A stretch of 64,000 bases of DNA from Acuticoccus sp. I52.16.1 (lineage in GTDB: Bacteria; Pseudomonadota; Alphaproteobacteria; Rhizobiales; Amorphaceae), in assembly GCF_022865125.1 (NCBI RefSeq), contig NZ_CP094828.1, positions 62,001 to 126,000 of the forward strand, given 5' to 3'. The position numbers were made by a program, and so were the translations under genes. This document shows, piece after piece, positions 21,508 through 36,650 of this stretch (positions within the stretch are counted from its first letter, which is position 1; every line of letters begins with the position of its first letter). The notes under the pieces were generated by a model, which was not told the origin of the DNA, ran no database searches, and was given only the letters and a program-made list of their open reading frames with translations.

Positions 21508-21854
21508 CCGCCAGAGACCGGCCCCACCTGCGGCGCGCCGTCGCAGTGCGTGCCCGGCGCCACCCTCGGGACGGCGGCGCGCGGCACCGCAGGGGCGCCG
21601 CCGGTCGGACGCGGCGCGCGCCCGAACCGCGCCCCAAACGAACGCTTTCCTCTCTTATGGCCGGCTGGAACATCGCTTGCACGCGAATGGGTTCGAGCGC
21701 CCAGGCCTCGCATGTTCCGGCCGTTTTCGGATGGGCTTGCGGTGCCGGCGTCCGGTTCGTTTAACTTATGCCGATCGGTGCGCCATGCTCACGGGGCTTC
21801 GGTCGCACAACCATGGGCTCGCGCTGCCGCGGCAGCGCACAACGAGGGAAGCAC
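21508..21854 (+). other. Intergenic region upstream of the peptide ABC operon
   Basis: A 347-nt stretch with no gene I can support. Its first half is very GC-rich with dyads (cggcgcgcggc); its second half becomes more mixed and contains the candidate sigma-54 element at 21666-21681. A putative ribosome site (gagggaagcac) ends just before the ATG at 21855. Confidence 0.5.
21666..21681 (+). promoter_or_regulatory. Candidate sigma-54 promoter upstream of peptide ABC operon
   Basis: TGGAACA-TCGC-TTGCA matches 10 of 12 fixed positions of TGGCACG-N4-TTGCW, with GG (21667-21668) and GC (21679-21680) exactly ten bases apart. It is 173 nt from the ATG at 21855, which would leave a long leader. Weaker evidence than for the amino-acid operons because of that distance. 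Confidence 0.35.
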
Positions 21855-23447
21855 ATGACACATCTTCGCGCGCTCCTGGCCGCTGCCGGTCTCGCTGCGC
21901 TGAGCGCCGCCACCCCGGCGCTCGCCGCCACGCCGGACAACATGCTCGTCATCGCCAACCGCATCGACGACATCGTCTCGCTCGACCCGGCCGAGACGTT
22001 CGAATTCGCCGGCAACGACGTCAATCGAAACGTCTATGGTCGCCTGGTGAACTTCGACCCGGCCGACCTCGAGGCCGGCTACCAGCCCGACATCGCCGAG
22101 AGCTGGGAGGTCTCCGAGGACGGCACGTCGATCACCTTCAAGATCCGGGACGGGATGACCTTCCACTCCGGCAACCCGGTCCGCGCCGAGGACGCCGCCT
22201 TCTCGCTGCGCCGCGTCATCAAGCTGAACCTCACCCCGTCGTTCATCTTCAGCCAGTTCGGCTTCACGCCCGAGAACGTCGACGAGAAGATCACCTTCGA
22301 CGACACCACGGTGACGTTGAACTTCGACGCGCCGTACGCCGAATCCTTCGTCCTCAACTGCCTCACCGCCGGCGTCGGCTCGATCGTCGACAAGGAACTG
22401 GCGATGGAGCACGAGAGCGACGGCGACTTCGGCCACGACTGGCTGAAGACCAACTCGGCCGGCTCCTACGCCTACAAGCTGACCAGCTGGCGCCCCGCCG
22501 AGGCCGTCACCCTGGAAGCCAACCCGGACTTCTACCTCGGCGAGCCGGCGATGAAGCGCGTCATCGTGCGCCACATCTCCGAGAGCGCCAACCAGCGCCT
22601 GCTGCTGGAGCGCGGCGACATCGACGTCGCCCGCAACCTCAACCCCGAGGATGTCGCCGGCATCGAGAGCGCCGAGGGCGTGAAGGTGGTGGACGAGCTG
22701 CGCGGGCGCATCATGTACGCCAGCTTCAACCAGAAGAACGAGTTCTCCGCCAATCCGAAGGTGATCGAGGCGCTGAAGTACGCCGTCGACTACGAGGGCA
22801 TGGCCAACTCGTTCCTCAAGGGCCAGTGGACCATCCACCAGACCTTCCTGCCGCAGACCTACTTCGGCGCGCTGGACGAGACGCCCTACACCTTCGACCT
22901 CGACAAGGCGAAGGCGCTGATCGTGGAAGCCGGCGTCGAGACGCCGATCACCCTCGGCCTCGGCGTACGTGACGCGCAGGAGCGCATCGAGATCGCGCAG
23001 TCGATGCAGAACACGCTCGGCGAACTGGGCATCGACCTCGACATCACCGTCGGTACCGGGGCGCAGACGCTCGGCAAGTACCGCGCCCGCGAACTCGACG
23101 TCTACGTCGGCGAGTGGGGGCCGGATTATCCGGATCCGAACACCAACGCCGCGACCTTCTCCTCCAACCCGGACAACTCGGACGCAGCGCAGGCGACCGG
23201 CATCCTCGCCTGGCGCAACGCCTACGATCCGGGCGCGCTGACGCAGAAAACCAAGGACGCGGTGCTGGAGAAGGACACCGAGACGCGCCGCAAGATGTAC
23301 GAGGAGATCCAGCAGACCTTCCTCGAGACCGCGCCGTTCGTGATCATGTTCCAGAAGATCGAGCAGGCGGCGATGCGCGACAACGTGGAGGGACTTTCCC
23401 TCGGCCAGGCGATCACCGCGGCGGCGTACTGGAAAGTCTCCAAGTAG
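21855..23447 (+). CDS. Peptide ABC transporter substrate-binding protein (family 5, DppA/OppA-like)
   Basis: A 530-residue periplasmic binding protein of solute-binding family 5. The signal peptide (about residues 1-24, cleavage after ALA) precedes the mature start ATPDN. Family features include the YQPDIAESWEVSEDGTSITF region near residue 75 (seen here as PDIAESWEVSEDG), TFHSGNPVRAED near residue 100, and the C-terminal GEWGPDYPDPNT near residue 420. It binds short peptides or similar ligands. It is first in a five-gene operon; the next gene starts on the base after its stop. The ATG at 21855 has a GAGGGAAG site upstream. Confidence 0.92.
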   Translation: MTHLRALLAAAGLAALSAATPALAATPDNMLVIANRIDDIVSLDPAETFEFAGNDVNRNVYGRLVNFDPADLEAGYQPDIAESWEVSEDGTSITFKIRDGMTFHSGNPVRAEDAAFSLRRVIKLNLTPSFIFSQFGFTPENVDEKITFDDTTVTLNFDAPYAESFVLNCLTAGVGSIVDKELAMEHESDGDFGHDWLKTNSAGSYAYKLTSWRPAEAVTLEANPDFYLGEPAMKRVIVRHISESANQRLLLERGDIDVARNLNPEDVAGIESAEGVKVVDELRGRIMYASFNQKNEFSANPKVIEALKYAVDYEGMANSFLKGQWTIHQTFLPQTYFGALDETPYTFDLDKAKALIVEAGVETPITLGLGVRDAQERIEIAQSMQNTLGELGIDLDITVGTGAQTLGKYRARELDVYVGEWGPDYPDPNTNAATFSSNPDNSDAAQATGILAWRNAYDPGALTQKTKDAVLEKDTETRRKMYEEIQQTFLETAPFVIMFQKIEQAAMRDNVEGLSLGQAITAAAYWKVSK

Positions 23448-24560
23448 GTGTCGATCTCCGACCGTGCGGGCGGGGGGGCGACCTCCCCCGCCTCGTCACC
23501 GGGCGGTCCGCCGCCTCGCGTGGCCAAACCGGAGCGGCGCCGCATCGTACCCCGCTGGATCGTCAGCCTCGCCTCCGGGGTCGGCACGATCGCGGTGACG
23601 CTGCTGGGGCTGCTGTTCGTGACCTTCGTCATCGGCCGCCTGATGCCGATCGACCCGGTGCTGGCCGTCGTCGGCGAGCGGGCCTCGCAGTCGACCTATG
23701 ATCAGGTCCACCGGGAGATGGGCCTCGACCAGCCCATCTTCGTCCAGTTCATCTACTACCTCGGCGACGTCCTGACCGGGGATTTCGGCACCTCCACCAC
23801 CACCGCCCACCCCGTCATCCAGGACATCGCCCGCGTCTTCCCGGCGACGTTGGAGCTGGCGACGCTCGGCACCCTCATCGGCGTCCTCGCCGGTGTGCCG
23901 CTCGGCGTGCTGGCGGCGGTCAAACGCGGCTCGCTGATCGACCAGATCGCCCGCGTGCTGGCGCTGGTGGGCTACTCGGCGCCGATCTTCTGGCTCGGCC
24001 TGCTGGCGCTCAACGTGTTCTACGGGCAGCTCGGCTGGGTCGCGGGGCCGGGGCGCGTGTCGATTTTCTACATGGACATGGTGCCGTCGGTGACGGGGCT
24101 CATCCTGGTGGATTCCATCCTGGACGACAATTGGGACGTCTTCTGGGACGCGCTCAGCCACATCATCCTGCCGGCTTCGCTGCTGGGTTACTACTCGCTC
24201 GCTTACATCAGCCGCATGACGCGCTCCTTCATGCTGGAGCAGCTCTCGGCCGAGTACATCACCACCGCCCGCGTCAAGGGCGCGCCGGAGTGGCTCGTCG
24301 TCTGGGGGCACGCCTTCGCCAACATCCGCGTGCAGCTCGTCACCGTGATCGCGCTGTCCTACGCGCAGCTGCTGGAGGGCTCGGTGCTCACCGAGATCAT
24401 CTTCGCCTGGCCGGGCCTCGGCAACTACATCGCCACCGCCCTCCTCTCGGCCGATCTCAACGCGGTCATGGGCGGAACGGTGGTCGTCGGCTGCGTCTTC
24501 GTCGGCCTCAACCTCTTCGCCGATTTCCTCTACCGCTTCTTCGACCCGAGGGCGCGCTGA
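23448..24560 (+). CDS. Peptide ABC transporter permease (DppB/OppB-like)
   Basis: A 370-residue inner-membrane permease with about six membrane segments. The N-terminal ~45 residues before RWIVSLASGVGTIAVTLLGL are Gly/Pro/Ser-rich and longer than usual for the family, so a later start is possible. The GTG at 23448 immediately follows the previous TAG. LGLDQPIFVQFIYYLG-like MGLDQPIFVQFIYYLGDV, the DFGTS segment, and the EAA loop TARVKGAPEWLVVWGHAF near residue 270 are typical of DppB. It forms the channel with the next gene product. Confidence 0.92.
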   Translation: MSISDRAGGGATSPASSPGGPPPRVAKPERRRIVPRWIVSLASGVGTIAVTLLGLLFVTFVIGRLMPIDPVLAVVGERASQSTYDQVHREMGLDQPIFVQFIYYLGDVLTGDFGTSTTTAHPVIQDIARVFPATLELATLGTLIGVLAGVPLGVLAAVKRGSLIDQIARVLALVGYSAPIFWLGLLALNVFYGQLGWVAGPGRVSIFYMDMVPSVTGLILVDSILDDNWDVFWDALSHIILPASLLGYYSLAYISRMTRSFMLEQLSAEYITTARVKGAPEWLVVWGHAFANIRVQLVTVIALSYAQLLEGSVLTEIIFAWPGLGNYIATALLSADLNAVMGGTVVVGCVFVGLNLFADFLYRFFDPRAR

Positions 24561-25471
24561 TGGCCGATCCAACCGCCCGCCGCGCCTGGCTCTTCTCCGA
24601 TGCGCCGGCCTCCCGGTTGCAGGCGCGGCTGTCCAACCTCTACACCGGGTGGCTCGCCTTCCGTGCCAATCGGCTGGCCATGGTGGGCCTGGCAATCCTG
24701 GTCCTTCTGGTGCTGGTGGCCGCGTTCGCGCCCTACGTCGCGCCGGCCAGCCCGTATGCGCAGGATCTGCCCAACCGCCTCCAGCCGCTCGGCGCGTCGG
24801 GCCACCTCCTCGGCACCGACTCGCTGGGGCGCGACATCCTCTCGCGCATCATCTGGGGCTCGCGCATCACGCTCGTCATCGTGGCGCTAGTGGCCGTGAT
24901 CGCGGCCCCCATCGGACTCCTCGTCGGCACGGTCGCCGGCTACTTCGGCGGCTGGCTCGACGCGGTGCTGATGCGCATCACCGACATCTTCCTCGCCTTC
25001 CCGCGCCTCGTGCTGGCGCTCGCCTTCGTCGCAGCGCTGGGGACGGGGATCGAGAACGCCATCATCGCGATCTCGATCACCGCCTGGCCGCCCTACGCCC
25101 GCATCGCCCGCGCCGAGACGCTGACGATCCGCAACCAGGACTTCATCTCCGCGATCCGTCTGCAGGGCGCGGGGCCGATCCGCATCATCACGCGCCACAT
25201 TTGGCCCCTGTGCATCTCGTCGCTGATCGTGCGCGTCACGCTCGACATGGCGGGCATCATCCTCGCTGCGGCGGGGCTGGGCTTCCTCGGCATGGGCGCG
25301 CAGCCGCCGGCGCCGGAGTGGGGCGCGATGATCTCCGAGGGGCGGCGCTTCATCCTCGACTACTGGTGGGTGGCGGCGGTGCCGGGGTTCGCGATCTTCT
25401 TCGTCTCGCTCGGCTTCAACCTCCTGGGCGACGGCCTGCGCGACGTTCTCGACCCGAAGGACGCCAAATGA
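24560..25471 (+). CDS. Peptide ABC transporter permease (DppC/OppC-like)
   Basis: A 303-residue permease beginning with the OppC-type N-terminal segment (FRANRLAMVGLAILVLLVLV). HLLGTDSLGRDILSRIIWG near residue 77 is the classic DppC signature, and the EAA loop is AIRLQGAGPIRIITRHI near residue 198. About six membrane segments are visible. Its ATG shares a base with the preceding TGA. Its end overlaps the next ATPase gene by 4 nt (ATGA), so the operon is tightly coupled. Confidence 0.94.
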   Translation: MADPTARRAWLFSDAPASRLQARLSNLYTGWLAFRANRLAMVGLAILVLLVLVAAFAPYVAPASPYAQDLPNRLQPLGASGHLLGTDSLGRDILSRIIWGSRITLVIVALVAVIAAPIGLLVGTVAGYFGGWLDAVLMRITDIFLAFPRLVLALAFVAALGTGIENAIIAISITAWPPYARIARAETLTIRNQDFISAIRLQGAGPIRIITRHIWPLCISSLIVRVTLDMAGIILAAAGLGFLGMGAQPPAPEWGAMISEGRRFILDYWWVAAVPGFAIFFVSLGFNLLGDGLRDVLDPKDAK

Positions 25472-26322
25472 CCCTTCTCGACGTCGAAAACCTCACCGTC
25501 ACCTTCCCCACCCGCACCGGCACGTTCGAGGCGGTGCGCGGGACGACCTTCTCGCTGGAACGCGAACGGCTCGGCATCGTCGGCGAATCGGGATCGGGCA
25601 AATCGATGACCGGGCGCGCGATCCTGCGCCTCGTCCGGCCGCCGGGCGAGGTCCGCGCCAACCATATCCGCCTCGGCGGCGAGGACCTCCTCGCCAAGTC
25701 CGAGCGGGCGATGCGCAAGGTCCGCGGCGAACGCATCTCGATGGTGATGCAGGATCCGAAATATTCGCTGAACCCGGTGCGCAGCGTCGGCCATCAGATC
25801 ATGGAGGCCTACCGCCTGCATGAACGCGGCAGCGCCAAAGACGCCCGCCGGCGTGCGCTGGAGATGCTGGAGGCGGTCCAGATCCGCGACCCGGAGCGCG
25901 TGTTCCGCGCCTACCCGCACGAGGTGTCGGGCGGCATGGGCCAGCGGATCATGATCGCGATGATGCTGATCCCCAATCCCGAGATCCTCATCGCCGACGA
26001 GCCGACCTCCGCGCTCGACGTGTCGGTGCAGCAGGAGGTGCTGGGGATCATGGACCGCCTGGTGCGCGACCGCGGAATGGGGCTGATCTTCATCAGCCAC
26101 GACCTCAACCTCGTCGCCTCGTTCTGCGATCGGGTGCTCATCATGTATGCCGGCCGCATCGTCGAGACGCTGCGGGCCGACCGCCTCGGCGAGGCCGAGC
26201 ACCCCTACACCCGCGGCCTCCTGGGCTCGCTCCCGCGGCTCGACGCGCCGACGGACCGGCTGACGGTGCTCGAGCGCGACCCGCTCTGGCGCGACATGCC
26301 GTCGGTGGAGGGGCGGGCATGA
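25468..26322 (+). CDS. Peptide ABC transporter ATP-binding protein (DppD-like)
   Basis: A 284-residue ATPase. Walker A is GESGSGKSMTG near residue 38, the Q-loop is in SMVMQDPKYSLNP near residue 92, the signature is VSGGMGQRIMIAMML near residue 153, Walker B is [13 protein letters not shown] near residue 173, and the switch His is in FISHDLNLV near residue 208. The signature is a G-M-G-Q variant, which is usual for DppD-type subunits. Its C-terminal YTRGLLGSLPRLD belongs to the oligopeptide-transporter extension. It forms a heterodimer with the next ATPase, whose ATG overlaps its stop by 4 nt. Confidence 0.94.
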   Translation: MTLLDVENLTVTFPTRTGTFEAVRGTTFSLERERLGIVGESGSGKSMTGRAILRLVRPPGEVRANHIRLGGEDLLAKSERAMRKVRGERISMVMQDPKYSLNPVRSVGHQIMEAYRLHERGSAKDARRRALEMLEAVQIRDPERVFRAYPHEVSGGMGQRIMIAMMLIPNPEILIADEPTSALDVSVQQEVLGIMDRLVRDRGMGLIFISHDLNLVASFCDRVLIMYAGRIVETLRADRLGEAEHPYTRGLLGSLPRLDAPTDRLTVLERDPLWRDMPSVEGRA

Positions 26323-27077
26323 GCGCGCTGAGCGTGCGCGACCTCGACGTGTGGTTCGCCAGCGGCGAGGACCGGGTCGACGCGGTGAAGGGCGCGAGCT
26401 TCGAGGTGCCGGCGGGGGGTTCGTTCGGCCTCGTCGGCGAATCGGGGTCGGGCAAGTCCACGGTGCTTCGGGCGATCACCGGACTGGTGCCGACATGGTC
26501 GGGCAGCATCGTCGTCGACGGGGTCGCGCTGGGGACGCGGCGCGACCGGGCCTTCTACGGCACGGTGCAGATGGTGTTCCAGGACCCGTACGCGTCGCTC
26601 CACCCGCGCCACTCGGTGGACAAGGTGCTGGACGAGACGTTGCGGTTGCACGGCATCCGCGACACCAACCGGCGCATCCCCGAGCTGCTGGAGCAGGTCG
26701 GTCTCGGCCCCTCATTCCGCTTCCGCTATCCGCACCAGCTCTCGGGCGGACAGCGGCAGCGTGTCGCCATCGCGCGGGCGCTGGCGCCCGAACCCTCGGT
26801 GCTGCTGCTCGACGAGCCGACATCGGCGCTCGACGTCTCGGTGCAGGCGGAGATCCTCAACCTGCTGACCGACCTCAGGGCGCAGCGCAACCTCACCTAC
26901 GTCATGGTGAGCCACGACCTGGCGGTGGTCGGCCACGTCGCCGAGCGGATCGCGGTGATGCGCGGCGGCGAGATCGTCGAGATCATGAGCGTCGACGACA
27001 TGCGCGCGATGACGCCCCGGCACGCCTACACGCGCCACCTCCTCGACGCCTCGCTCGGCTACAAGCGGGCGGGTTGA
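26319..27077 (+). CDS. Peptide ABC transporter ATP-binding protein (DppF-like)
   Basis: A 252-residue ATPase, the second of the pair. Walker A is GESGSGKSTVLRAI near residue 36, the Q-loop is in QMVFQDPYASLHPRHSV near residue 84, the signature is [16 protein letters not shown] near residue 142, Walker B is [12 protein letters not shown] near residue 164, and the switch His is in VSHDLAVVGH near residue 199. It is shorter than many DppF proteins, lacking most of the C-terminal extension. It ends the operon and is followed by a hairpin in the convergent gap. Confidence 0.94.
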   Translation: MSALSVRDLDVWFASGEDRVDAVKGASFEVPAGGSFGLVGESGSGKSTVLRAITGLVPTWSGSIVVDGVALGTRRDRAFYGTVQMVFQDPYASLHPRHSVDKVLDETLRLHGIRDTNRRIPELLEQVGLGPSFRFRYPHQLSGGQRQRVAIARALAPEPSVLLLDEPTSALDVSVQAEILNLLTDLRAQRNLTYVMVSHDLAVVGHVAERIAVMRGGEIVEIMSVDDMRAMTPRHAYTRHLLDASLGYKRAG

Positions 27078-27131: not shown

Positions 27132-27599
27132 TCAGCCCAGGAGTTCGGGCTCGGGCGCGCCGGGGCCGAATTCGAAGACGTAGGGGGTCTCGGGGTTCCA
27201 GCCTTCGAGATCGATCCCGAACGCCGCCGAGGCGCTGACCGCCACCGCCCCGCGCCCGCCCTGGAACTCGAAGTCCTCGGCGAACGCGAAGTCGAACTTG
27301 AAGATGATGTCCGCCCCACCGACGTCGGCCGAGGTCGACGCCTCGACGGACGGGTCCTCGTCGCCGGTCAATGCGGTGGAGATGGCGGCGCCGCCGGTCA
27401 GGCGCGCGGCGAAGCCCACCGCGATGGACCCGAACAGCCCCTCCCCGGAGCCGAACAGTCCCTCGCCGGACATCTGCTCGTCGACGGGATAGAAGGTGTC
27501 GCCGGTATGCTCGGACGAGCCTTCGCTCGTCGGCTCGAGCGATGTGTCGGTTTCCTGGAAGGTCGGCGCGCGGTCGCGAAGTCGCGAGAACATCGGCAT
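27132..27599 (-). CDS. Acidic hypothetical protein with tandem heptapeptide
   Basis: A 155-residue protein that I cannot assign to a family. It is strongly acidic, rich in Glu, Asp, Gly, Ser and Phe, with few basic residues after position 10. Residues 45-58 are two exact copies of GEGLFGS. A Gly/Ala-rich middle (about 58-75) is weakly hydrophobic. The C-terminal half alternates small and aromatic residues (FKFDFAFAEDFEF; FGIDLEGW), reminiscent of beta-strands, and it ends EPELLG. There is no obvious signal peptide or cysteine. The upstream region is unusually AT-rich for this genome. It could be a recently acquired or lineage-specific gene; function unknown. Confidence 0.6.
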   Translation of the reverse strand: MPMFSRLRDRAPTFQETDTSLEPTSEGSSEHTGDTFYPVDEQMSGEGLFGSGEGLFGSIAVGFAARLTGGAAISTALTGDEDPSVEASTSADVGGADIIFKFDFAFAEDFEFQGGRGAVAVSASAAFGIDLEGWNPETPYVFEFGPGAPEPELLG

Positions 27600-27821: not shown

Positions 27822-28406
27822 TCAGATCGACGCCAACGTCCACTCCACGATCTCCAACGCGGCCTGGCGCGCGGCGTTGTTCATTCCCTCGGCCGCGGTG
27901 TCGACCTGATCGCTGGCGAGCGGGACGATGGTGTCGAACACGCGGGTCCGGACCACGCGACCATTGGAATCGTCGAGGATCTTGACCGCAACCTGCACCC
28001 GCGCGCGTGTGCCCGCATAGGTCTCCACCTGGAAGGCGCGGACCTCGGTCACGACCTGGTAGTTGATCAACAGGCTCTGCCCCGGCAGGCCCACGGCGTG
28101 GACGCGGCCGGTGTTCTCGAACGTGTCGAGCAGCATGCGCTGCAACACCTTCGGCGCGGCGTCCTGGTAGACCACCTGAGGGTAGTAGGAGAGCGTCATC
28201 GCCGTGGGCTTCACGGCGATCTTCGACGTGGAGAGCGATTCCAACGCCCGCGGCTCCGGCACCAGGATCTGCGCCGTCGTGCCGCTCGCGACCGCCGGGT
28301 TGTCGAGCGCGGTCAGTTCGTAGATCGCTTCGATCTTGTCGCCTCCCGCGCAGCCCACCAGGGCCAACGCGAGAAGCAGTGAAGCAAAGGCGCGCAATCT
28401 ACTCAT
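27822..28406 (-). CDS. ABC-type transport auxiliary lipoprotein (PqiC/YmbA-like)
   Basis: A 194-residue outer-membrane-type lipoprotein. The signal sequence ends in a lipobox LVGC with the lipidated Cys at residue 19. The rest matches the auxiliary lipoproteins that accompany MCE transporters: a YxLxxxD-like start (YELTALDNP), ILVPEPRA..LSTSKIAVKP, YYPQVVYQDAAPKVLQRML (seen as YYPQVVYQDAAP), and a C-terminal helix. Such proteins link the periplasmic MCE assembly to the outer membrane. Its ATG overlaps the MCE gene stop by 4 nt, so it is the last gene of the permease-ATPase-MCE-lipoprotein operon. Confidence 0.85.
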   Translation of the reverse strand: MSRLRAFASLLLALALVGCAGGDKIEAIYELTALDNPAVASGTTAQILVPEPRALESLSTSKIAVKPTAMTLSYYPQVVYQDAAPKVLQRMLLDTFENTGRVHAVGLPGQSLLINYQVVTEVRAFQVETYAGTRARVQVAVKILDDSNGRVVRTRVFDTIVPLASDQVDTAAEGMNNAARQAALEIVEWTLASI

Positions 28407-31400
28407 CGGCGCTGCGGGGTATATCGAGGCGCACTGTCACCCCCGAAGATCACGCGGCTGGGGTCGCGGTCAAAACTCGACACGGCACTCTCGATCGCTC
28501 GCAAGGTACTACGTCCTTGATTGATGAGTGCCCGAAGATCGTCAAGACCGCTCTGGCTAAACCGTGAAAGACCGTTCGCGATTGTACCGGCGCGTGGCGC
28601 AAATGCAGCAGCAACGTCCCGGATCGAGGCCGTCGCGCCGTTGACCCCGGCGAACACCGTCTGCACCTCGCCGCCCAGCACCGCGTTGGCGCGATCCATG
28701 AAGACGCCCAGCTTGTTGGACGCGCCCTCCACGTTGGCCGCGATGACCTTCACCCGGTCGATCAGGTCCTGGACCATGCCGCCCTCGCCGCTCGCGTTGC
28801 TCAGGCTGTCGGTGATGCGCCGCGCGGTCGCCACCACCTCGTCGATCGCGGTGCCGATCTCGCCGGTGCGCGAGCCGATGGCGGTCGCCACCTGCCGCGC
28901 GTTGTCGAGGATCGTGTTGATCGCCGACGTGTCGATCGAGCTGACGGCGACGGCGACGTCGTCGGCCGCCCGTTTCACGCTGGCGACGATGTCGTCGATG
29001 CTGGGCCCGGCGTCGCGCAGGTTGCCCGCGAAACTCGACACCGAGTCGATCGTCGAGCCAATCTGGTCGGTGCGGGCCGAAACCGCCGCGGCGACCTGGT
29101 CGATCCGCCGCGAGGCCTCGCTCGCCGTGGAGATGATCTGCTGCACGTTCTCGCGCGAGTCCGACAGGGTGAGCGAGACGTCGCGCACGTTCGTCATGAT
29201 CGCGCGCACCATCACCGGGTCGACGGCGGTCACTACCTCGGTCACCGCGTCCACCACCGGGTCGATCTGCCGGCGCAGGGCCGGCAAGGTCGCGGTGAAC
29301 GTCTTCACGTCGGCCACCGCCCCGTTCGCGTTGTCGATGATCGCGCTGATCGTGCCCAACTCGCCCCGGACGCGGCCGGTGATGTCGGCGACGTCGTCCG
29401 CCGCCACGCCGGCAGTGGCGATGAAGTGCTGCACCTGCGGCGCGGCGGCGCCCAGCGTGTCGGTCAGCGCCTTCACGCTGGCGACGATCTCGCCAATCGC
29501 CGCCGGGTCCACCGCCTGCAACACCGCCGAGACGTTCTCGATCCCCGGACGCAGCGTCTCGCCGTAGCCCGGCAAGGCGTCGGCGAAGGTGCGGGCCGAG
29601 GCGACGGCCGCGCCCGCATCGTCGATCGCGGTCGTCACCTGCGGCAGCTTGGCCTGCAGGCCTGCGGCGATGTCGCGGGCGCTCGCCACGGTTGTGTCCA
29701 CCCCCGCGATGATCGCCTGCACCCGCTCGCTCTCGCCCGAAAGCATCGTCGTCAGCCCGCGCACGTCGTCGACGATCCCGTCGAGCGCCGCCGGGTCGAT
29801 GGCCGACAGGGCGGCCGAGACGTTCTCGATCCCCGGCTGCAGCGCCGTCGCCATGTCCGGCAGCGACGCGGCGAAGACGCGCGCGTCGGCGACGGATGCG
29901 GCGACGTTGTCGATCACACCCTCGATCGCCGGGATGCGCGCGACGAGCCGGTCGGTCACCTCGCGAGCGTTCTGGATCGACTGCTCGGCGGAGGTGATGA
30001 TCCCGTCGATCGCCGGCGCCCGGTTGCTGAGGACGCCGGAGATGTCGTGCACGTTCTGGAAGATCGCCTCCACGGCGGTCGGGTCGATCGCCGCCAGCAC
30101 GTCGGAGACGTTCTGCACGCCCGGCTCCAGCGAGGCGACCAGCCCCGGCAGCGCTTCGGTCGTGCGGCGGATGTCGGCGGCGGACGCGGTCACGTCGTCG
30201 ATCGCGGTGCCGATCCGCGGCATGCGCTGGGCCACCCCGGAGGTGATCGCCTCGACCCGCAGCGACGCGCCGCGCACCGCGGTGACGATGTCGTCGATCG
30301 CCGGGGTCTGCGCGTTGACCGCGTCGGTCACGCCACGAACGTTGGCGACGATCGCCTCGATGGCGGCCGGGTCGACCGCGCTCAACACGTTGGAGAGGTT
30401 GGCGATGCCCGGCTCGAGCGAGGCGACGAGCCGCGGCGCGGCGTCGGCGGCCTGCCGGGCGCTGGCGATCGCGGCGGAGGCGTCGTCGATCGCCGTGCCG
30501 ATCTCGGCCGAGCGGGTCGCCACCTCCTGGACCACCACGCGCGCATCGGCCGCGACCGACGAGGCGTCGGCGACGACGCCCTCGACACGCTCGACGATGC
30601 GCTCCACCGCCGGTGCCTGTCCTCCCAGCGCCGTGGACAGAGCCTCGACGTTGGAGACGATGGCCTCGATGGCGGCCGGGTCGATGCTGTTCAGGACGTC
30701 CGTCACGTTGGCGATGCCCGGCTCCAGCGAGGCCACGATCCGCGGCAGATCGTTGCTGGCGGTGCGCACGTTCGCCATCGTGGCGGTCGCATCGTCGATG
30801 GCGGTCCCGATGGCCGGCATGCGCTGTGCGATCGACGACGTGATCGTCTCGGCGCGCATCGCGGTGCCGCGGGCGGCCTCGATCAGATCGGCGATGGCCG
30901 GGCCTTTGTCGGCCACCGTCTGCGACAGTCGCTCGACGTTGGCGACCACGGCGTCGATGCGCGTCGCGTCGACGGCGGCGACCGTCGCCGAGGCGTCTTC
31001 CAGCAGCTTCTCGGCCGTCGCCACGAGCTGCGGCGCGCCGTCCGACGCCTGACGCAGGTTGGTCACCAGCGCCGAGGCCTGGTCGATGGTCGTCCCGATC
31101 GCCTCGCTGCGGGCCGAGAGCACACGGGTCACGCTGTCGATCCCCTTGGCCGCTTCGGTCGCCGCGCCGACGAGGCTGGCGACGTTCTCGGCCTGGCCGG
31201 CGAGCGTGTTCGTCACGCTTTGGACGTCGTCGACGATGCCGGTGACCTTCTCGGGCGTGATCGCGGCGCTGGCGCGGCTGATGTTCTGGATCGCGGGGCC
31301 GGCGGCCTTCACCGCGGTGCGGATGTCGCCCACCAGAGCGGAAACGTCGTCCAGCGTCTTGCCGACGTCGTCGCGCCGGGCGGCGACCGTGTCGGTGATT

Positions 31401-32395
31401 TGCGTCAGGTTGACGCTGATGCGGGAGGCGTTGTCGATCAGGCTGCCGATCTCGCTGGAGCGATCGGACACCGCCTTGCTGACGGTGTCGACGTTGGTGA
31501 TGATCTGATTGACCGCCGTCGCGTCGATCGACTTCACCAGCGTGTCGGCCGAGTTGAGCGCCTCGTTGAGGGTGTCGGCGGCGTCGCCGACGCGAGTGAC
31601 GATGCCGTTGGCGCTCGCCATCAACGTGTCGGCCTGCTGGCCGATCTTCGGCAGGTCGCCTGAGAAGGTCTCGATATTGCCGACGATGGTGCCGACGCGC
31701 GACGGGTCGATCGCCGCCAGGATGCCGTTGGCGTTCTCGACCACGCCGGTGATCTGCGGCGCCGCCTGGGCGATGGCGTTGGCGGCGTTGGAGAAGTCGG
31801 TCACCATCCCCGGCACCTGCGGCGAGGCCTGGGCGAGGTTGTCGGTGATCGTGCGCACGTTCTGGACGACGCCGGAGAGGTTCCCCTGGTTCTCGTCGAC
31901 GAGCTGTCGCACCACGCCCAGCGTGGAATCGAGCCGGCCCAGGACGCTCTGCAACGTGTCGAGAACGTTGGTGAAGGCGCTGGTGGCGGCCTCCAGGGTG
32001 GGGATCTTGTCTTCCTTGTCGGCCGCCTCGAACAGCGACTCGCCCGAGCCGCCGACCAGCGACACGTAGGCGACGCCCGTCAGCCCCTGGGAGGCGAGCT
32101 GGGCCTGCGTGTTGACCTTGATCGGCGCCGAGGGGTTCACCCTCGTGATGGCGATGACGTTGTCGCCCCCTTCCGGCGGGAACTCCAGCGACGTCACCTC
32201 GCCGACGCGGATGCCGTTGAAGTACACCCCCGCGCCGGTGGACAGGCCGGTCACCGCCTCCGGAAAGATGATGCGCAGCCGTTCCGTCGCCCCGGTGCCG
32301 GACGCGCGATAGAGCCACCACAGCGAACCGAACGCCCCTGCGAGCACGACAAGCACGAAGATGCCGATCGCAACGTAGTTGGCACGCGTTTCCAT
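28403..32395 (-). CDS. Giant MCE (MlaD-family) protein with about ten 96-residue repeats
   Basis: A 1330-residue inner-membrane-anchored periplasmic protein. One membrane segment lies at residues 8-29. A single MCE/MlaD domain spans about 38-118 (GLSTGAGVYFNGIRVGEV; LTGVAYVSLVGGS). The remainder is helical and nearly free of aromatic residues. From about residue 225 to 1200 it repeats: an anchor of the form (A/S)(I/V)D(P/x) recurs at residues 229, 290, 379, 475, 571, 674, 770, 866, 962, 1058 and 1154. Seven of those intervals are exactly 96 residues; the others are 61, 89 and 103. MCE proteins form hexameric rings that carry lipids between membranes. Family members with one domain are usually about 300-500 residues. 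The permease and ATPase genes precede it and a lipoprotein follows. Confidence 0.92.
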   Translation of the reverse strand: METRANYVAIGIFVLVVLAGAFGSLWWLYRASGTGATERLRIIFPEAVTGLSTGAGVYFNGIRVGEVTSLEFPPEGGDNVIAITRVNPSAPIKVNTQAQLASQGLTGVAYVSLVGGSGESLFEAADKEDKIPTLEAATSAFTNVLDTLQSVLGRLDSTLGVVRQLVDENQGNLSGVVQNVRTITDNLAQASPQVPGMVTDFSNAANAIAQAAPQITGVVENANGILAAIDPSRVGTIVGNIETFSGDLPKIGQQADTLMASANGIVTRVGDAADTLNEALNSADTLVKSIDATAVNQIITNVDTVSKAVSDRSSEIGSLIDNASRISVNLTQITDTVAARRDDVGKTLDDVSALVGDIRTAVKAAGPAIQNISRASAAITPEKVTGIVDDVQSVTNTLAGQAENVASLVGAATEAAKGIDSVTRVLSARSEAIGTTIDQASALVTNLRQASDGAPQLVATAEKLLEDASATVAAVDATRIDAVVANVERLSQTVADKGPAIADLIEAARGTAMRAETITSSIAQRMPAIGTAIDDATATMANVRTASNDLPRIVASLEPGIANVTDVLNSIDPAAIEAIVSNVEALSTALGGQAPAVERIVERVEGVVADASSVAADARVVVQEVATRSAEIGTAIDDASAAIASARQAADAAPRLVASLEPGIANLSNVLSAVDPAAIEAIVANVRGVTDAVNAQTPAIDDIVTAVRGASLRVEAITSGVAQRMPRIGTAIDDVTASAADIRRTTEALPGLVASLEPGVQNVSDVLAAIDPTAVEAIFQNVHDISGVLSNRAPAIDGIITSAEQSIQNAREVTDRLVARIPAIEGVIDNVAASVADARVFAASLPDMATALQPGIENVSAALSAIDPAALDGIVDDVRGLTTMLSGESERVQAIIAGVDTTVASARDIAAGLQAKLPQVTTAIDDAGAAVASARTFADALPGYGETLRPGIENVSAVLQAVDPAAIGEIVASVKALTDTLGAAAPQVQHFIATAGVAADDVADITGRVRGELGTISAIIDNANGAVADVKTFTATLPALRRQIDPVVDAVTEVVTAVDPVMVRAIMTNVRDVSLTLSDSRENVQQIISTASEASRRIDQVAAAVSARTDQIGSTIDSVSSFAGNLRDAGPSIDDIVASVKRAADDVAVAVSSIDTSAINTILDNARQVATAIGSRTGEIGTAIDEVVATARRITDSLSNASGEGGMVQDLIDRVKVIAANVEGASNKLGVFMDRANAVLGGEVQTVFAGVNGATASIRDVAAAFAPRAGTIANGLSRFSQSGLDDLRALINQGRSTLRAIESAVSSFDRDPSRVIFGGDSAPRYTPQRR
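28796..31723 (-). repeat. Coding tandem repeat, 288-nt period (96 codons)
   Basis: The region of the MCE gene encoding residues ~225-1200 is built from about ten diverged units. A typical unit reads, in order: IDPAAIEAIV, NVxxLS, APAIDxIV, a GTAIDDA or related turn, then LEPGIxNVS. The 89- and 103-residue units differ from 96 by seven residues, one helical heptad, so length changes appear to have kept the helical phase. The protein units have diverged enough that simple recent slippage is unlikely. Confidence 0.85.
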
Positions 32396-32445: not shown

Positions 32446-33333
32446 CTAAGTGCTCACGAACCGACCGCCGCGCACACCGCGGAAGTATTCCTGAACCCAC
32501 GGGTGATCGTAGTCGACGAGGTCCTGCACCGGGCCGTTGACGATGACCCGCTTGTCCGCCAGCACCGCCACGCGGTCGCACACGTTCCAGAGCGAATCGA
32601 GGTCGTGCGTCACCATGTAGACGGTGAGGCCCAGCGTATCGCGCAGGCCCGCGATGAGATCGTCGAAGTTGGCGGCGCCGATCGGGTCGAGGCCGGAGGT
32701 CGGCTCGTCGACGAAGAGGAGGTCCGGGTCGAGCGCCAGCGCGCGCGCCAGACCGGCACGCTTGATCATGCCGCCGGACAGTTCGGACGGAAGCTTGTCG
32801 GCCGAGTTGCGCGCCAGACCCACCATGTCGATCTTCATCAACGCCAGCTCGTCCATGAGCTGCTTGCTCATGGTGCCGCCCTGCTCCTTCATCGGAACCT
32901 GGATGTTCTCCTTGACCGTCAGCGAGGAGAACAGCGCGCCCATCTGGAAGAGCACGCCATAGCGGCGGTTGAGCAGCGAGCGCTGCGATGCGCTCAGCGC
33001 GTCCACGTCCTTGTCGAACAGGCGGATCGTGCCCGAACACTTCGGCACCAGGTCGAGGATGGTGCGCATCAGCACGGACTTGCCCTGCCCCGACCCGCCG
33101 ACGAAGCCGAGGATCTCGCCGCGGCGCACATCGAGGTTGAGGTTCTTGAACACCGTGAACGAGCCGAAGCGGACCTCGACGTCGCGCGCCTCGATGACGT
33201 GCTCGTCGTCGTTCGGTTTCTCGTCCAGCGTGGAGTCGTGGCCGGCGCGGTGATGGGCGGGCGCGGGATGGACCTTGAAGGTCCCGTCCGGCAGCGTCTC
33301 CTCCATCGGGGCGGTGTCGTCTTCGTCGCTCAC
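32446..33333 (-). CDS. MCE-associated lipid transporter ATP-binding protein (MlaF-like)
   Basis: A 295-residue ABC ATPase of the MlaF/Ttg2A group. About 40 extra hydrophilic residues precede the conserved start VIEARDVEVRFG. Walker A is GGSGQGKSVLMR, the Q-loop is in GVLFQMGALFSSLTV (the MlaF form), the signature is LSGGMIKRAGLARAL, Walker B is LLFVDEPTSGLDP, and the switch His is in VTHDLDS. The GTG at 33333 shares one base with the permease stop (TAGTG). It energises lipid movement through the permease and MCE protein. The MCE gene starts 50 nt downstream. Confidence 0.93.
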   Translation of the reverse strand: MSDEDDTAPMEETLPDGTFKVHPAPAHHRAGHDSTLDEKPNDDEHVIEARDVEVRFGSFTVFKNLNLDVRRGEILGFVGGSGQGKSVLMRTILDLVPKCSGTIRLFDKDVDALSASQRSLLNRRYGVLFQMGALFSSLTVKENIQVPMKEQGGTMSKQLMDELALMKIDMVGLARNSADKLPSELSGGMIKRAGLARALALDPDLLFVDEPTSGLDPIGAANFDDLIAGLRDTLGLTVYMVTHDLDSLWNVCDRVAVLADKRVIVNGPVQDLVDYDHPWVQEYFRGVRGGRFVST

Positions 33334-34502
33334 TAGATCCCCACCGCTGCGAAGAAGATTGCGAAGAGGCCGTCGACGACGATCACCAGGAAGATGGCCT
33401 TCACCACCGAGCTGGTCGTCTGCCGGCCCAGCGACTCGGACGACCCCCCCACTTTCAGCCCCTCCGAGCAGCCCACCAGGCCGATGATGAGCGCCATGAA
33501 CGGCGCCTTGGCGATGCCGATCCAGAATTCGAGCGGCGTCACGACCTCGTTGAGGCGGCGCAGGAAGACGTCCGGCGAGATGCCCAGCGAACTCCACGAG
33601 ATGAGCATCGCCCCCAGGATGGCCGCGATGTCGGACAGGAAGGCGAGGAGCGGCATGGCCAGGATCAGCGCCATCAGCCGCGGCACCACCAGCACCTCGA
33701 CCGGGTCGAGGCCGAGGACGTCCAACGCGTCCACCTCTTCACGCATGCGCATGGCGCCGATTTCGGCGGTGAACGCCGACCCGGAGCGGCCCGCCACCAG
33801 GATCGCCGCCAGGAGCACGCCCAGCTCGCGCAGGATGAGGATGCCGGACATGTCCACCACGAAGATCGTGGCGCCGAAAGAGGAGAGGTAGAACCCGCCC
33901 TGCTGCGCCACGATGAGGCCGACGAGGAAGCTCATCAGCATCACGATCGGCACCGCGCCGCGGCAGCTGCGGTCGAAGTTGGAGAGGATCGAGGTGACGC
34001 GCAGCCGGCGGAAGTGGGTGAAGAGGGTCGTCAGGCGGAAGCCGAACACCCCCAGCATCGACAGGAGCGCCACGAAGTCCTGGAAGACGCCGACGGTGGT
34101 GGCGCCGATGGAGTTGACCCAGCGGATCACCGCCCACGGCTGGCGCGGACGGTCGAGCAGCTGCGGGATGTGGTTCTCGATCTCCTTGAGGAGGAATTGC
34201 AGCCGCGGGCTCGCCCCCTCCAGGCGCACGCGGTGGCCGGCGAACTCGGCCCGCGCCCGTTCGCGGTGGATGATCCAAGCGCCCGCGGTGTCGACGGTGG
34301 CGATGCCGGCGAGCTGGAAGACCACGTCGCACGGCTTGGTGCCGCGCCCCGCCTCCGACAGCGCGTCGAGCGCGGCGACGGAGCATTCGGCCATATCGGC
34401 CGCGCTCACCGTCCAGCTGCCGCTGAACGTTGCCGAGAACGTCTCGCCCTCGCGGTGCGTCTTCACCGCCGGTGTCGGGGATGGTGCCTGCGCGTCCATC
34501 AT
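33333..34502 (-). CDS. MlaE-family permease with N-terminal STAS domain
   Basis: A 389-residue permease. Residues ~15-115 look like a STAS domain (TFSGSWTVSAADMAECSVA, then CDVVFQLAGIATVDTAGAW), the fold of MlaB, here fused to the channel subunit. The rest is an MlaE permease: FRRLRVTSILSNFDRSC, VPIVMLMSFLVGLIVAQQG, LLAAILVAGRSGSAFTAEIG and the FMALIIGLVGCSEGL end with about five membrane segments. It is first in the operon. Tandem ATG codons (34502 and 34499) make the exact start ambiguous by one residue. Confidence 0.93.
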   Translation of the reverse strand: MMDAQAPSPTPAVKTHREGETFSATFSGSWTVSAADMAECSVAALDALSEAGRGTKPCDVVFQLAGIATVDTAGAWIIHRERARAEFAGHRVRLEGASPRLQFLLKEIENHIPQLLDRPRQPWAVIRWVNSIGATTVGVFQDFVALLSMLGVFGFRLTTLFTHFRRLRVTSILSNFDRSCRGAVPIVMLMSFLVGLIVAQQGGFYLSSFGATIFVVDMSGILILRELGVLLAAILVAGRSGSAFTAEIGAMRMREEVDALDVLGLDPVEVLVVPRLMALILAMPLLAFLSDIAAILGAMLISWSSLGISPDVFLRRLNEVVTPLEFWIGIAKAPFMALIIGLVGCSEGLKVGGSSESLGRQTTSSVVKAIFLVIVVDGLFAIFFAAVGI

Positions 34503-34582
34503 CTCGTCTTTTGCATGCTCGTTTTAGGTGGTAGCTCCACAAGGCTGTTTCGTCACCAGCTGACGGGCCGTGCCACTGCACG

Positions 34583-34598
34583 TGGCCCACCGAGTGCT
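34583..34598 (+). promoter_or_regulatory. Weak candidate sigma-54 promoter upstream of dgcN
   Basis: TGGCCCA-CCGA-GTGCT has GG (34584-34585) and GC (34596-34597) ten bases apart and matches 9 of 12 fixed consensus positions. It is 65 nt from the dgcN ATG, a suitable distance. The match is the weakest of the four candidates in the window and could be chance. Confidence 0.3.
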
Positions 34599-34662
34599 GC
34601 ACAATGGCATCATGTCCGGATTGCCTAAACAGTCCGCTACGATCAAAGAGGGATTGGCGCCT

Positions 34663-35673
34663 ATGGAACTCGAACGCCCCTATCTGTTGTTTCTCGGCGA
34701 CGTTCCTGACGCCTTGGCCGCGAAAACCAGCCTCGGAATCGTCGATTGGCGACGCGATTGGTGCGTGGGTCAGTGGCGCCTGCCGGGCTGCAAGGCGGAT
34801 GCGAAGCTCCCCGAGATGAACGCGACGGACGCCGCCGCGCAGGGCGCCAAGACGATGATCGTCGGCGTCGTGAACGCCGGCGGGGTGCTGCCGGACCATT
34901 GGATCGCCTCGATCGTGGAAGCGCTGGAGGCGGGGCTCGACGTCGCCAGCGGCCTGCACAAGCCGCTCGCCAGCGTTCCGGCGATCGCAGAGGCCGCGGC
35001 CAAGACCGGCCAGCGCCTCCTCGACGTGCGCCTCTCCAAGCAGTCCTTCGCCACCGGCAAGGGCACCAAGCGTCCCGGCAAGCGCCTCCTCACCGTCGGC
35101 ACCGACTGCTCGGTCGGCAAGAAATACACCGCGCTGGCGCTGGAAGCCGGCATGAACGCCAAGGGCTTCGACGCCACCTTCTGCGCCACGGGGCAGACGG
35201 GCGTCTTCATCTCCGGCCGCGGCGTCGCCATCGACGCGGTGGTGGCCGACTTCATCTCCGGCGCCGCCGAGTGGCTGACCCCGGAGACCGCGCCGGACGC
35301 GTGGCAGATCGTCGAGGGCCAGGGGTCGCTGTTCCACCCGTCGTTCGCGGGCGTCTCGCTGGGGCTTCTGCATGGAGCGCAGCCGGACGCGTTCGTCGTC
35401 TGCCACGAGCCGACGCGCACCAGGATGCGCGGCGTGGAGACGCCGCTGCCGTCGATCGGCGAGGTGATCGAGATGAACATCGCCCTCGGCCGGCTCACCA
35501 ATCCCGCGATCAAGCCGGTCGGCGTCGCGGTCAACACCGCCGCCCTCGACGAGGGGGCCGCGCGCGCGCTCCTCTACGAGATCGCCACGGAATACAACCT
35601 GCCCACCATCGACCCGGTGCGGTTCGGCGTGGATCCCATCGTCGACGCGCTGGCGACGGAGTACCTGTCGTGA
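34663..35673 (+). CDS. dgcN: DgcN family protein (DUF1611), D-glutamate N-acetyltransferase
   Basis: A 336-residue DUF1611 protein. It has an N-terminal Rossmann-like part (LLFLGDVPDALAAKT) and a P-loop-like nucleotide site TVGTDCSVGKKYTALAL near residue 145. ATGQTGVFISGRG and the VEGQGSLFHPSF segment follow. Homologues named DgcN work with DgcA to convert D-glutamate by way of N-acetyl-D-glutamate in marine bacteria; this assignment rests on family and on the adjacent gene. The ATG at 34663 is chosen because family members start near MELERPYLLFLGD and an AGAGGGA site lies upstream. dgcA overlaps its end by 4 nt. Confidence 0.82.
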   Translation: MELERPYLLFLGDVPDALAAKTSLGIVDWRRDWCVGQWRLPGCKADAKLPEMNATDAAAQGAKTMIVGVVNAGGVLPDHWIASIVEALEAGLDVASGLHKPLASVPAIAEAAAKTGQRLLDVRLSKQSFATGKGTKRPGKRLLTVGTDCSVGKKYTALALEAGMNAKGFDATFCATGQTGVFISGRGVAIDAVVADFISGAAEWLTPETAPDAWQIVEGQGSLFHPSFAGVSLGLLHGAQPDAFVVCHEPTRTRMRGVETPLPSIGEVIEMNIALGRLTNPAIKPVGVAVNTAALDEGAARALLYEIATEYNLPTIDPVRFGVDPIVDALATEYLS

Positions 35674-36650
35674 CCGCGCTGACCGCCGTCGCGGAAGAAT
35701 ATCCGATCGCGGGCGTCTTCTCGATCTCGCGCGAGCGGCGCACCATCGCGCGGATGGTGGTCGCGACGCTGACCGACGGGCCGCACGTCGGCCGGGGCGA
35801 GGCCGTGCCCTATCCGCGCTACGGCGAATCGGTCGAGGGCGTGCTGGCGGACATACTGGCAATGTCCGACCGGATCGCCGCTGGCCTGACGCGCGAGGAG
35901 TTGCAAGCGGCGATGCCCGCCGGCGCGGCCCGCAACGCCATCGACCTTGCGATGTGGGACCTGGAGGCCAAGCGCTCCGGCACACGCGTCGCCGACATGC
36001 TGGGCCAGACGATGGCGCCGGTGACGACGGCCTACACCATCGGCCTGGGCGAAGCGGAGGAGATGGCGGAGGCGGCCCGCAACGCCGGCGACCGCCCGCT
36101 GCTGAAGATCAAGCTCGGGCGCCCGCTGGGGGACGACGTGCGCATCCAGGCGATCCGCGCGGCGGTGCCGAACGCGACCCTGATCGTCGACGCCAACGAG
36201 GGTTGGAGCGACAACAACCTCCTGATCAACATGTCGGCCTGCAAGGCGGCGAAGGTCGCGCTGATCGAGCAGCCGCTCCCGGCCAACCGCGACGGCGCGC
36301 TGGCGACGGTCTCGCACCCGGTGCCGATCTGCGCCGACGAGAGCGTCCACGCCTCGACGGACCTCGCCGCGCTGAAGGGCCGCTACGACGCGGTGAACAT
36401 CAAGCTCGACAAGACCGGCGGCCTGACCGAGGCCCTCAAGGCCGTCGAAGAGGCGCGCCGGCTCGACCTGATGGTGATGGTCGGCTGCATGGTGACGACG
36501 TCGCTGGGGATCGCACCGGCGATGCTGCTGACCCAGGGCGCCGCCTACGTGGACATCGACGGCCCGCTGATGCTCGCCCGCGACCGCGACGAGGGCCTCA
36601 CGTTCGACGGCTCGACGGTCTACCCACCGTCCGCCGAACTCTGGGGCTGA
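35670..36650 (+). CDS. dgcA: N-acetyl-D-glutamate racemase / dipeptide epimerase (enolase superfamily)
   Basis: A 326-residue enolase-superfamily enzyme. The first catalytic lysine is in the KxK motif LLKIKLG near residue 143. Metal ligands are Asp in VDANEGW, Glu in EQPLP and Asp in CADES, and the second catalytic lysine is in NIKLDKTGG near residue 245. The layout is that of dipeptide epimerases; the pairing with dgcN points to the N-acetyl-D-glutamate racemase variant. The GTG start at 35670 overlaps the dgcN stop (GTGA). Which of the two activities applies cannot be settled from motifs alone. Confidence 0.85.
   Translation: MTALTAVAEEYPIAGVFSISRERRTIARMVVATLTDGPHVGRGEAVPYPRYGESVEGVLADILAMSDRIAAGLTREELQAAMPAGAARNAIDLAMWDLEAKRSGTRVADMLGQTMAPVTTAYTIGLGEAEEMAEAARNAGDRPLLKIKLGRPLGDDVRIQAIRAAVPNATLIVDANEGWSDNNLLINMSACKAAKVALIEQPLPANRDGALATVSHPVPICADESVHASTDLAALKGRYDAVNIKLDKTGGLTEALKAVEEARRLDLMVMVGCMVTTSLGIAPAMLLTQGAAYVDIDGPLMLARDRDEGLTFDGSTVYPPSAELWG

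Follow-up and report, generated by a model that had tools for sequence, protein, structure and literature searches.

The locus described here raises the question of why an MCE protein with a single MCE domain should be 1330 residues long, and what so long a tail might do in the cell envelope. The gene lies in a window of 64,000 nucleotides (the whole stretch of DNA analysed; positions 62,001 to 126,000 of contig NZ_CP094828.1) from the marine bacterium Acuticoccus sp. I52.16.1 and stands third in an operon of four genes:

33333-34502, minus strand: MlaE-type permease with an N-terminal STAS-like domain (MpcE-like), 389 aa; PF02405, 238 bits
32446-33333, minus strand: MlaF-type ABC ATPase (MpcF-like); PF00005, 101.3 bits
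28403-32395, minus strand: MCE protein (MpcD-like), 1330 aa; open frame with domain and NCBIfam profile matches
27822-28406, minus strand: PqiC-type (ABC_trans_aux) lipoprotein (MpcA-like), 194 aa; PF03886, 52.2 bits

A first-pass annotation of this DNA had given the third gene the same coordinates, a length of 1330 aa and one MCE domain, leaving the strand unstated; all of this is borne out by the open frame and by PF02470, with the gene on the minus strand. The permease is the sole PF02405 match in the genome, and its match to STAS_2 in a profile search (27.6 bits) is slightly below the cut-off of 29.2. The best NCBIfam match of the ATPase is to MlaF, with a score under the MlaF cut-off, and the gene likely starts with the GTG at 33333 (295 aa), abutting the permease stop. 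The lipoprotein gene is downstream of the MCE gene, and the two share 4 bases where the lipoprotein start and the MCE stop overlap. The residues LVGC are visible in its product and presumably form a lipobox-like motif. At the 31 loci tested (27 distinct genes) the order permease, ATPase, MCE was kept in every case and a PqiC-type lipoprotein was present at 30. Relatives of about 308 aa in the Gammaproteobacteria (locus L073 and other Lysobacteraceae/Xanthomonadales loci) also have a permease and an ATPase upstream; L073, the only such locus tested, gave no lipoprotein match. In the Acuticoccus genome as a whole (5.53 Mb, 97% complete) one MCE gene and one MlaE gene were found, and there were no matches to PF05494 (MlaC) or PF04333 (MlaA), profiles for which the controls were positive in E. 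coli and Caulobacter (2/14). The operon is flanked on the opposite strand by plus-strand genes (21768-27077 and 34570-36650) which, by eye only, have the look of an ABC transporter of the peptide type, with a binding protein and two each of permeases and ATPases, and of two genes of dipeptide/D-amino-acid metabolism. A small open frame between the operons (27132-27599, minus strand, 155 aa) carries a 21-bp tandem repeat at 27426-27471.

A system of this composition is already known. The Mpc (Mla-Pqi chimeric) system of Brucella abortus, MpcEFDA, consists of a STAS-MlaE protein, an ATPase, a single-MCE protein and a PqiC-like lipoprotein, and the four proteins co-purify in a pull-down (PMC12436622). 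The Acuticoccus operon has the same four genes in the same order and, as in the Brucella account, which has no MlaC and no MlaA in the operon, neither of these was found. In Acuticoccus, too, approximately 100 MlaD-like N-terminal residues are followed by what a low-confidence model predicts to be an extended helical C-terminus. The difference is one of scale, since MpcD is a protein of 331 aa with a needle modelled at approximately 250 Å (PMC12436622), whereas the Acuticoccus protein has 1330 aa and eleven 5-residue joints. The same paper already remarks that channels of the Hyphomicrobiales vary widely in length, and it mentions repeat coiled coils of low confidence (PMC12436622).

The first-pass annotation had held that long MCE proteins gain their length by stacking MCE domains and not by helical repeats. 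This expectation did not survive comparison with the literature, in which the usual design of a long MCE protein is a needle with one MCE domain and a helical tail: of MlaD homologues, 85% are described as long, with an average of 374 residues (PMC10665443). The long MlaD of Veillonella parvula, like the Acuticoccus protein, has a single MCE domain and a helical tail, and has been put forward as an envelope bridge that needs neither MlaA nor MlaC; it is a protein of 419 aa with approximately 150 helical residues and a beta-barrel (PMC10665443), whereas in Acuticoccus no barrel was seen and the helical length is about eight times as great. In Mycobacterium smegmatis Mce1 (PDB 8fed-8fef) a single MCE domain is again followed by helical repeats separated by kinks, eight per subunit; stacked as 6-helix modules, these form a tube (PMC9882608). 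The six subunits of Mce1 all differ, each has eight short repeats, and there is a C-terminal portal barrel (PMC9882608), in contrast to the one gene, the segments of 8-14 heptads and the lack of any visible barrel in Acuticoccus. These two precedents, the long MlaD homologues and the Mce1 tube, mean that a helical bridge of great length is not in itself new. PqiB and LetB are likewise MCE proteins, forming periplasm-spanning tunnels, and the lipoprotein encoded beside the Acuticoccus MCE gene is PqiC-like; each has a stack of three or seven MCE domains (PMC5561183), whereas PF02470 matched one stretch only of the 1330-aa protein, so that the tandem MCE domains typical of PqiB and LetB were not found. 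What distinguishes the Acuticoccus protein is its size together with a jointed build that is counted in heptads.

After the MCE domain comes a tail of approximately 1195 residues, rich in Ala, Val and Ile. The parts of the protein are as follows, all on the minus strand:

32303-32392, minus strand: N-terminal membrane helix, residues 2-31 (AlphaFold2 helix 2-31; hydrophobic run in the sequence)
32051-32281, minus strand: MCE domain, residues 39-115 (PF02470, 51.4 bits; strands, pLDDT 60-86 in blocks over residues 31-140)
31712-31987, minus strand: first tail segment, residues 137-228 (4-residue register insertion near 166 by anchor-free segmentation)
31529-31711, minus strand: unit 229-289, 8 heptads + 5
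31262-31528, minus strand: unit 290-378, 12 heptads + 5
30974-31261, minus strand: unit 379-474, 13 heptads + 5
30686-30973, minus strand: unit 475-570, 13 heptads + 5
30377-30685, minus strand: unit 571-673, 14 heptads + 5
30089-30376, minus strand: unit 674-769, 13 heptads + 5
29801-30088, minus strand: unit 770-865, 13 heptads + 5
29513-29800, minus strand: unit 866-961, 13 heptads + 5
29225-29512, minus strand: unit 962-1057, 13 heptads + 5
28937-29224, minus strand: unit 1058-1153, 13 heptads + 5
28406-28936, minus strand: C-terminal module, residues 1154-1330 (one-residue register skips approximately 88 and 49 residues before the end)
28439-28471, minus strand: conserved C-terminal motif DRDPSRVIFGG, residues 1309-1319

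The eleven anchors from which these units are counted (residues 229, 290, 379, 475, 571, 674, 770, 866, 962, 1058 and 1154) had been proposed in the first-pass annotation and all of them hold, as does its count of seven intervals of exactly 96 residues among the ten (61, 89, 96, 96, 103, 96, 96, 96, 96, 96). A looser anchor expression misses 866 and adds 684 and 695. The repetition is far above chance, identity at a lag of 96 over residues 181-1330 being 23.4% against a maximum of 13.8% at any lag (3-599) in 300 shuffles, and the claim of a very long, repetitive helical tail is supported. The description of the repeats as near-exact stands for their spacing, which is exact, and fails for their sequence: the seven central units (anchors 475-1058) share 21-48% protein identity, no pair of the eleven units exceeds 64% identity in DNA, and Tandem Repeats Finder reported no 288-bp array. 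Judged from this divergence the repeats appear to be old, with exact spacing.

The spacing follows a simple rule. In every unit an integral number of unbroken heptads is combined with a break of 5 residues at the anchor (96 = 13 × 7 + 5), and all ten anchor intervals equal 5 modulo 7. When the heptad count is restarted 5 residues past each anchor, 236 of the 248 Val, Ile, Leu, Met, Phe, Trp and Tyr residues between 229 and 1153 occupy positions a, d and e (95%, where 43% would be expected), against 44% of large hydrophobics on the core in the best single register without resets. A segmentation that makes no use of the anchors recovered a register reset 3-5 residues past each of the eleven, giving eleven 5-residue resets, together with skips of one residue at 1242 and 1281 and the insertion of 4 residues near 166, with a core occupancy of 317/336 compared with 226-235/336 in three shuffles. 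Across 49 distinct units of exactly 96 residues from eight Acuticoccus proteins, large hydrophobics occupy 77%, 53% and 53% of positions a, d and e and at most 3% of the non-core positions. Two other descriptions of the tail were considered and set aside. A single continuous helix face, suggested by a peak in the spectrum at 3.557 residues per turn, turned out to be the average of exact heptads (3.5) and 5-residue resets. Four helices of approximately 24 residues per unit, punctuated by prolines, do not match the heptad register, which continues through the recurrent prolines; these therefore look like kinks inside a helix. A step of 5 residues does not keep the hydrophobic face of a single continuous alpha-helix, and each joint therefore needs a real kink.

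Structure prediction is in keeping with a jointed helix, at low confidence. An AlphaFold2 model of residues 1-1199 (9 sequences) gave a credible MCE domain and an all-helical tail (monomer, mean pLDDT 45.7) in which the helix breaks at 11/11 anchors and at nine other places, the last units being modelled as helices of 90-92 residues. A three-unit monomer (mean pLDDT 41.7) broke at 3/3 anchors and was uninformative on packing. With the low-confidence full model, Foldseek returned Mce1 subunits and MlaD as best matches, a result that bears on the MCE part alone. The protein exceeds the cut-offs of PF11887 (Mce4_CUP1; 79.2 against 32.6) and TIGR00996 (Mtu_fam_mce; 181.6 against 140.5); since the unrelated coiled-coil families Baculo_PEP_C, DUF948 and DUF1664 also pass, the tail matches are probably in part compositional. 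The nearest solved sequence is PDB 13hr (E 5e-28, residues 1-284), with Mce1 weaker. This 312-aa 'Mce/MlaD domain-containing protein', a quarter of the Acuticoccus length, has the same core pattern, segmentation of the part of its sequence listed giving 5-residue resets at approximately 171 and 234 and a core of 38/39.

The reach of the rule was followed in 94 distinct relatives (of 100 proteins chosen by similarity to the window's protein). An anchor profile found at least two anchors in 41 of the 94. Counting spacings of 41-129 between ungapped anchor matches of at least 8 bits, 121/132 equal 5 modulo 7, and 53/63 outside Acuticoccus, where one in seven would be expected; the spacings are not independent, since orthologues share them, and 7 of the 14 distinct spacing values obey. 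In the 53 obeying segments outside Acuticoccus 966 of 1039 large hydrophobics lie on the core, a test that left out the 10 non-Acuticoccus spacings that do not equal 5 modulo 7. Among relatives of at least 400 aa (n = 44) the 4-residue insertion near 166 occurs in 42 (58/94 over all relatives), a 5-residue reset near 232 in 43, and the skips approximately 88 and 49 residues from the C-terminal end in 32 and 34 respectively. Among those under 400 aa (n = 50) the reset near 232 occurs, by subtraction, in only one, and 61/151 register resets are of 5 residues compared with 209/702 in shuffled sequences, so that the rule appears weak in these shorter proteins. Joint number and length are correlated over the 94 relatives (0.96), and a degenerate form of the C-terminal motif is present in 86 of them.

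Joint number is not fixed within the genus. In the eight Acuticoccus proteins the lengths are 1620, 1508, 1330, 1234, 1232, 1140, 1132 and 1038 aa and the joints number 14, 13, 11, 10, 10, 9, 9 and 8 respectively. Exactly 96 residues are missing from the protein of G005, the nearest relative (694-789 as aligned, overlapping units 674 and 770), and the A. yangtzensis protein lacks two blocks of 96; these two and the window's protein form one clade (100/100) with three different lengths. Between nearest-neighbour pairs there are 52 indels of at least 4 residues, of which 13 are multiples of 7, nine correspond to between one and three whole 96-residue units and 30 are neither; a statistic calculated on them with the 3.557 period (R 0.49) was reached by 0/5000 jittered sets and compares with 0.03-0.17 for re-aligned random deletions. 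This statistic is used in support only, being built on the 3.557 period and including some indels that stem from poorly aligned comparisons with L136. Four consecutive 96-residue units of the A. mangrovi protein (residues 534-917; L062:8100-9251) are 95-98% identical in DNA, and units are therefore still undergoing duplication; this array is a recent in-frame tandem amplification, the count of which could vary by strain or be misjudged in assembly. Proteins of more than 1000 aa were found, among the matches listed (359 of 397 genomes of the order matched), only in Acuticoccus and in one genome of another family of the order (G379, L052). That protein has 1171 aa, a best lag of 105 and again many 5-residue resets, and its elongation looks independent, since its repeat pattern differs from that of Acuticoccus. 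A class-wide survey of length, not a census, gave 733 aa as the longest open frame among the matches listed, which did not include the window's gene.

These data bear on the possibility, raised in the first-pass annotation as grounds for rejecting its reading, that the gene is an artefact of assembly, and equally on the further possibility of a decaying gene carrying a selfish, functionless repeat. Repeats can expand neutrally, and in A. mangrovi the copy number could indeed reflect assembly. The window's own units, at no more than 64% DNA identity, are nevertheless too divergent to have been collapsed or copied by an assembler, and long open frames are present in 8/8 Acuticoccus genomes, which together make an assembly artefact unlikely; with dN/dS below 1 and both ends conserved, artefact or decay has hardly any claim to be the explanation.

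For the window's protein and its two nearest relatives dN/dS (all three pairs) is 0.08-0.18 over residues 1-135, 0.46-0.53 in the tail and 0.12-0.25 over the last 100 residues. The base and the C-terminal end are conserved, then, and the number of joints is variable. Such a pattern might be expected if the tail were a tether rather than a conduit, a flexible coiled-coil spacer joining a short transporter to the outer membrane, with a length that drifts because little depends on it: the tail evolves faster than the ends, and length varies across all eight species with copy number changing readily. Against this, the class of the large hydrophobics is retained when the closest relatives are compared (0.91-0.94) and adherence to the core pattern is 95%, which argues that the amphipathic build is itself under selection, and a tether would need no unbroken stripe. 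We regard a tether as a rather improbable account.

The reading that we prefer, and consider fairly probable, is that the gene encodes the MCE subunit of an MpcD-type phospholipid transporter with an extremely extended, jointed needle. The membrane-anchored MCE domain would dock onto the STAS-MlaE/MlaF ABC engine and the helical tail would lead across the periplasm, its C-terminal end probably meeting the PqiC-type lipoprotein at the outer membrane. The tail would be made up of amphipathic heptad helices (8, 12, 13, 13, 14 and five of 13 heptads) with 5-residue breaks starting I/V-D-P, and six parallel copies, by analogy with Mce1 and MpcD, would turn their hydrophobic faces inwards to line a single lipid conduit. 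The hydrophobic core stripe fits, without proving, six subunits round a hydrophobic tunnel, and transport of lipid between the membranes is suggested by the sequence relationships. Each break would serve as an in-line joint, so that the assembly would be a jointed hose. Gain and loss are of entire units, and species would therefore differ in steps of approximately 14 nm.

At the alpha-helical rise of 1.5 Å per residue the 1195-residue tail would measure roughly 180 nm fully stretched and approximately 90 nm at half that rise. Published periplasm widths in other bacteria are approximately 20 nm in M. smegmatis (PMC9882608), 24.2 nm in V. parvula (PMC10665443) and approximately 30 nm in Brucella (PMC12436622). 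A straight upright bridge is therefore excluded, as 180 nm is several times these widths and half the rise is still too long, and the hose would have to run obliquely, bend or lie along the membrane. The length problem would be solved if instead the chain reversed at each I/V-D-P joint, so that helices of 13 heptads (approximately 13.5 nm) stood side by side in a bundle with a column about the height of the periplasm. Helix length is near-uniform within the protein (89 or 82 in other genera) and AlphaFold breaks the helix at all eleven anchors and all three in the two models, as a fold-back would predict; uniform helices are, however, also expected from duplication of units. Glycine is rare at the anchor columns, which would be unusual for hairpin turns, and the kinks described in Mce1 are in-line (PMC9882608). 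Moreover joint numbers change by odd steps, with single 96-residue differences between close species, which would place the C-terminal end on alternating sides; a fold-back anchored at both ends should change in pairs. In-line joints are favoured on this ground and seem considerably the more probable of the two arrangements, the fold-back bundle being an unlikely one that nonetheless ranks ahead of a tether.

Within the literature searched, and as far as the partial sources show, the size of the protein, the heptad + 5 rule and the changes in copy number by whole units appear to be new. Neither the rule nor the whole-unit changes were found in the portion of the Brucella Mpc description available (PMC12436622), and searches combining MCE with heptad, or MlaD with tandem repeat, gave only off-topic matches among those listed. 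Cells of A. yangtzensis are described as oval with one peak end (PMC5747140). We suggest, tentatively and with more doubt than attaches to the transporter itself, that the jointed hose may be a hexamer in which rigid heptad barrels of 13.5 nm alternate with kinked joints, approximately 90-180 nm long and bent or lying in the plane of the membrane, linking distant sites on the inner and outer membranes, with its reach set by whole segments under a heptad + 5 rule that the longer MCE-family members would share. MCE needles have been explained in print as being of periplasm length; a genus with proteins of 1038-1620 residues either breaks this idea or implies a folding of the tail that has not been seen. 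As in Acuticoccus, AlphaFold models of MCE tails are of low confidence in two of the papers cited, and the heptad + 5 rule would offer a means of predicting segment boundaries in such tails.
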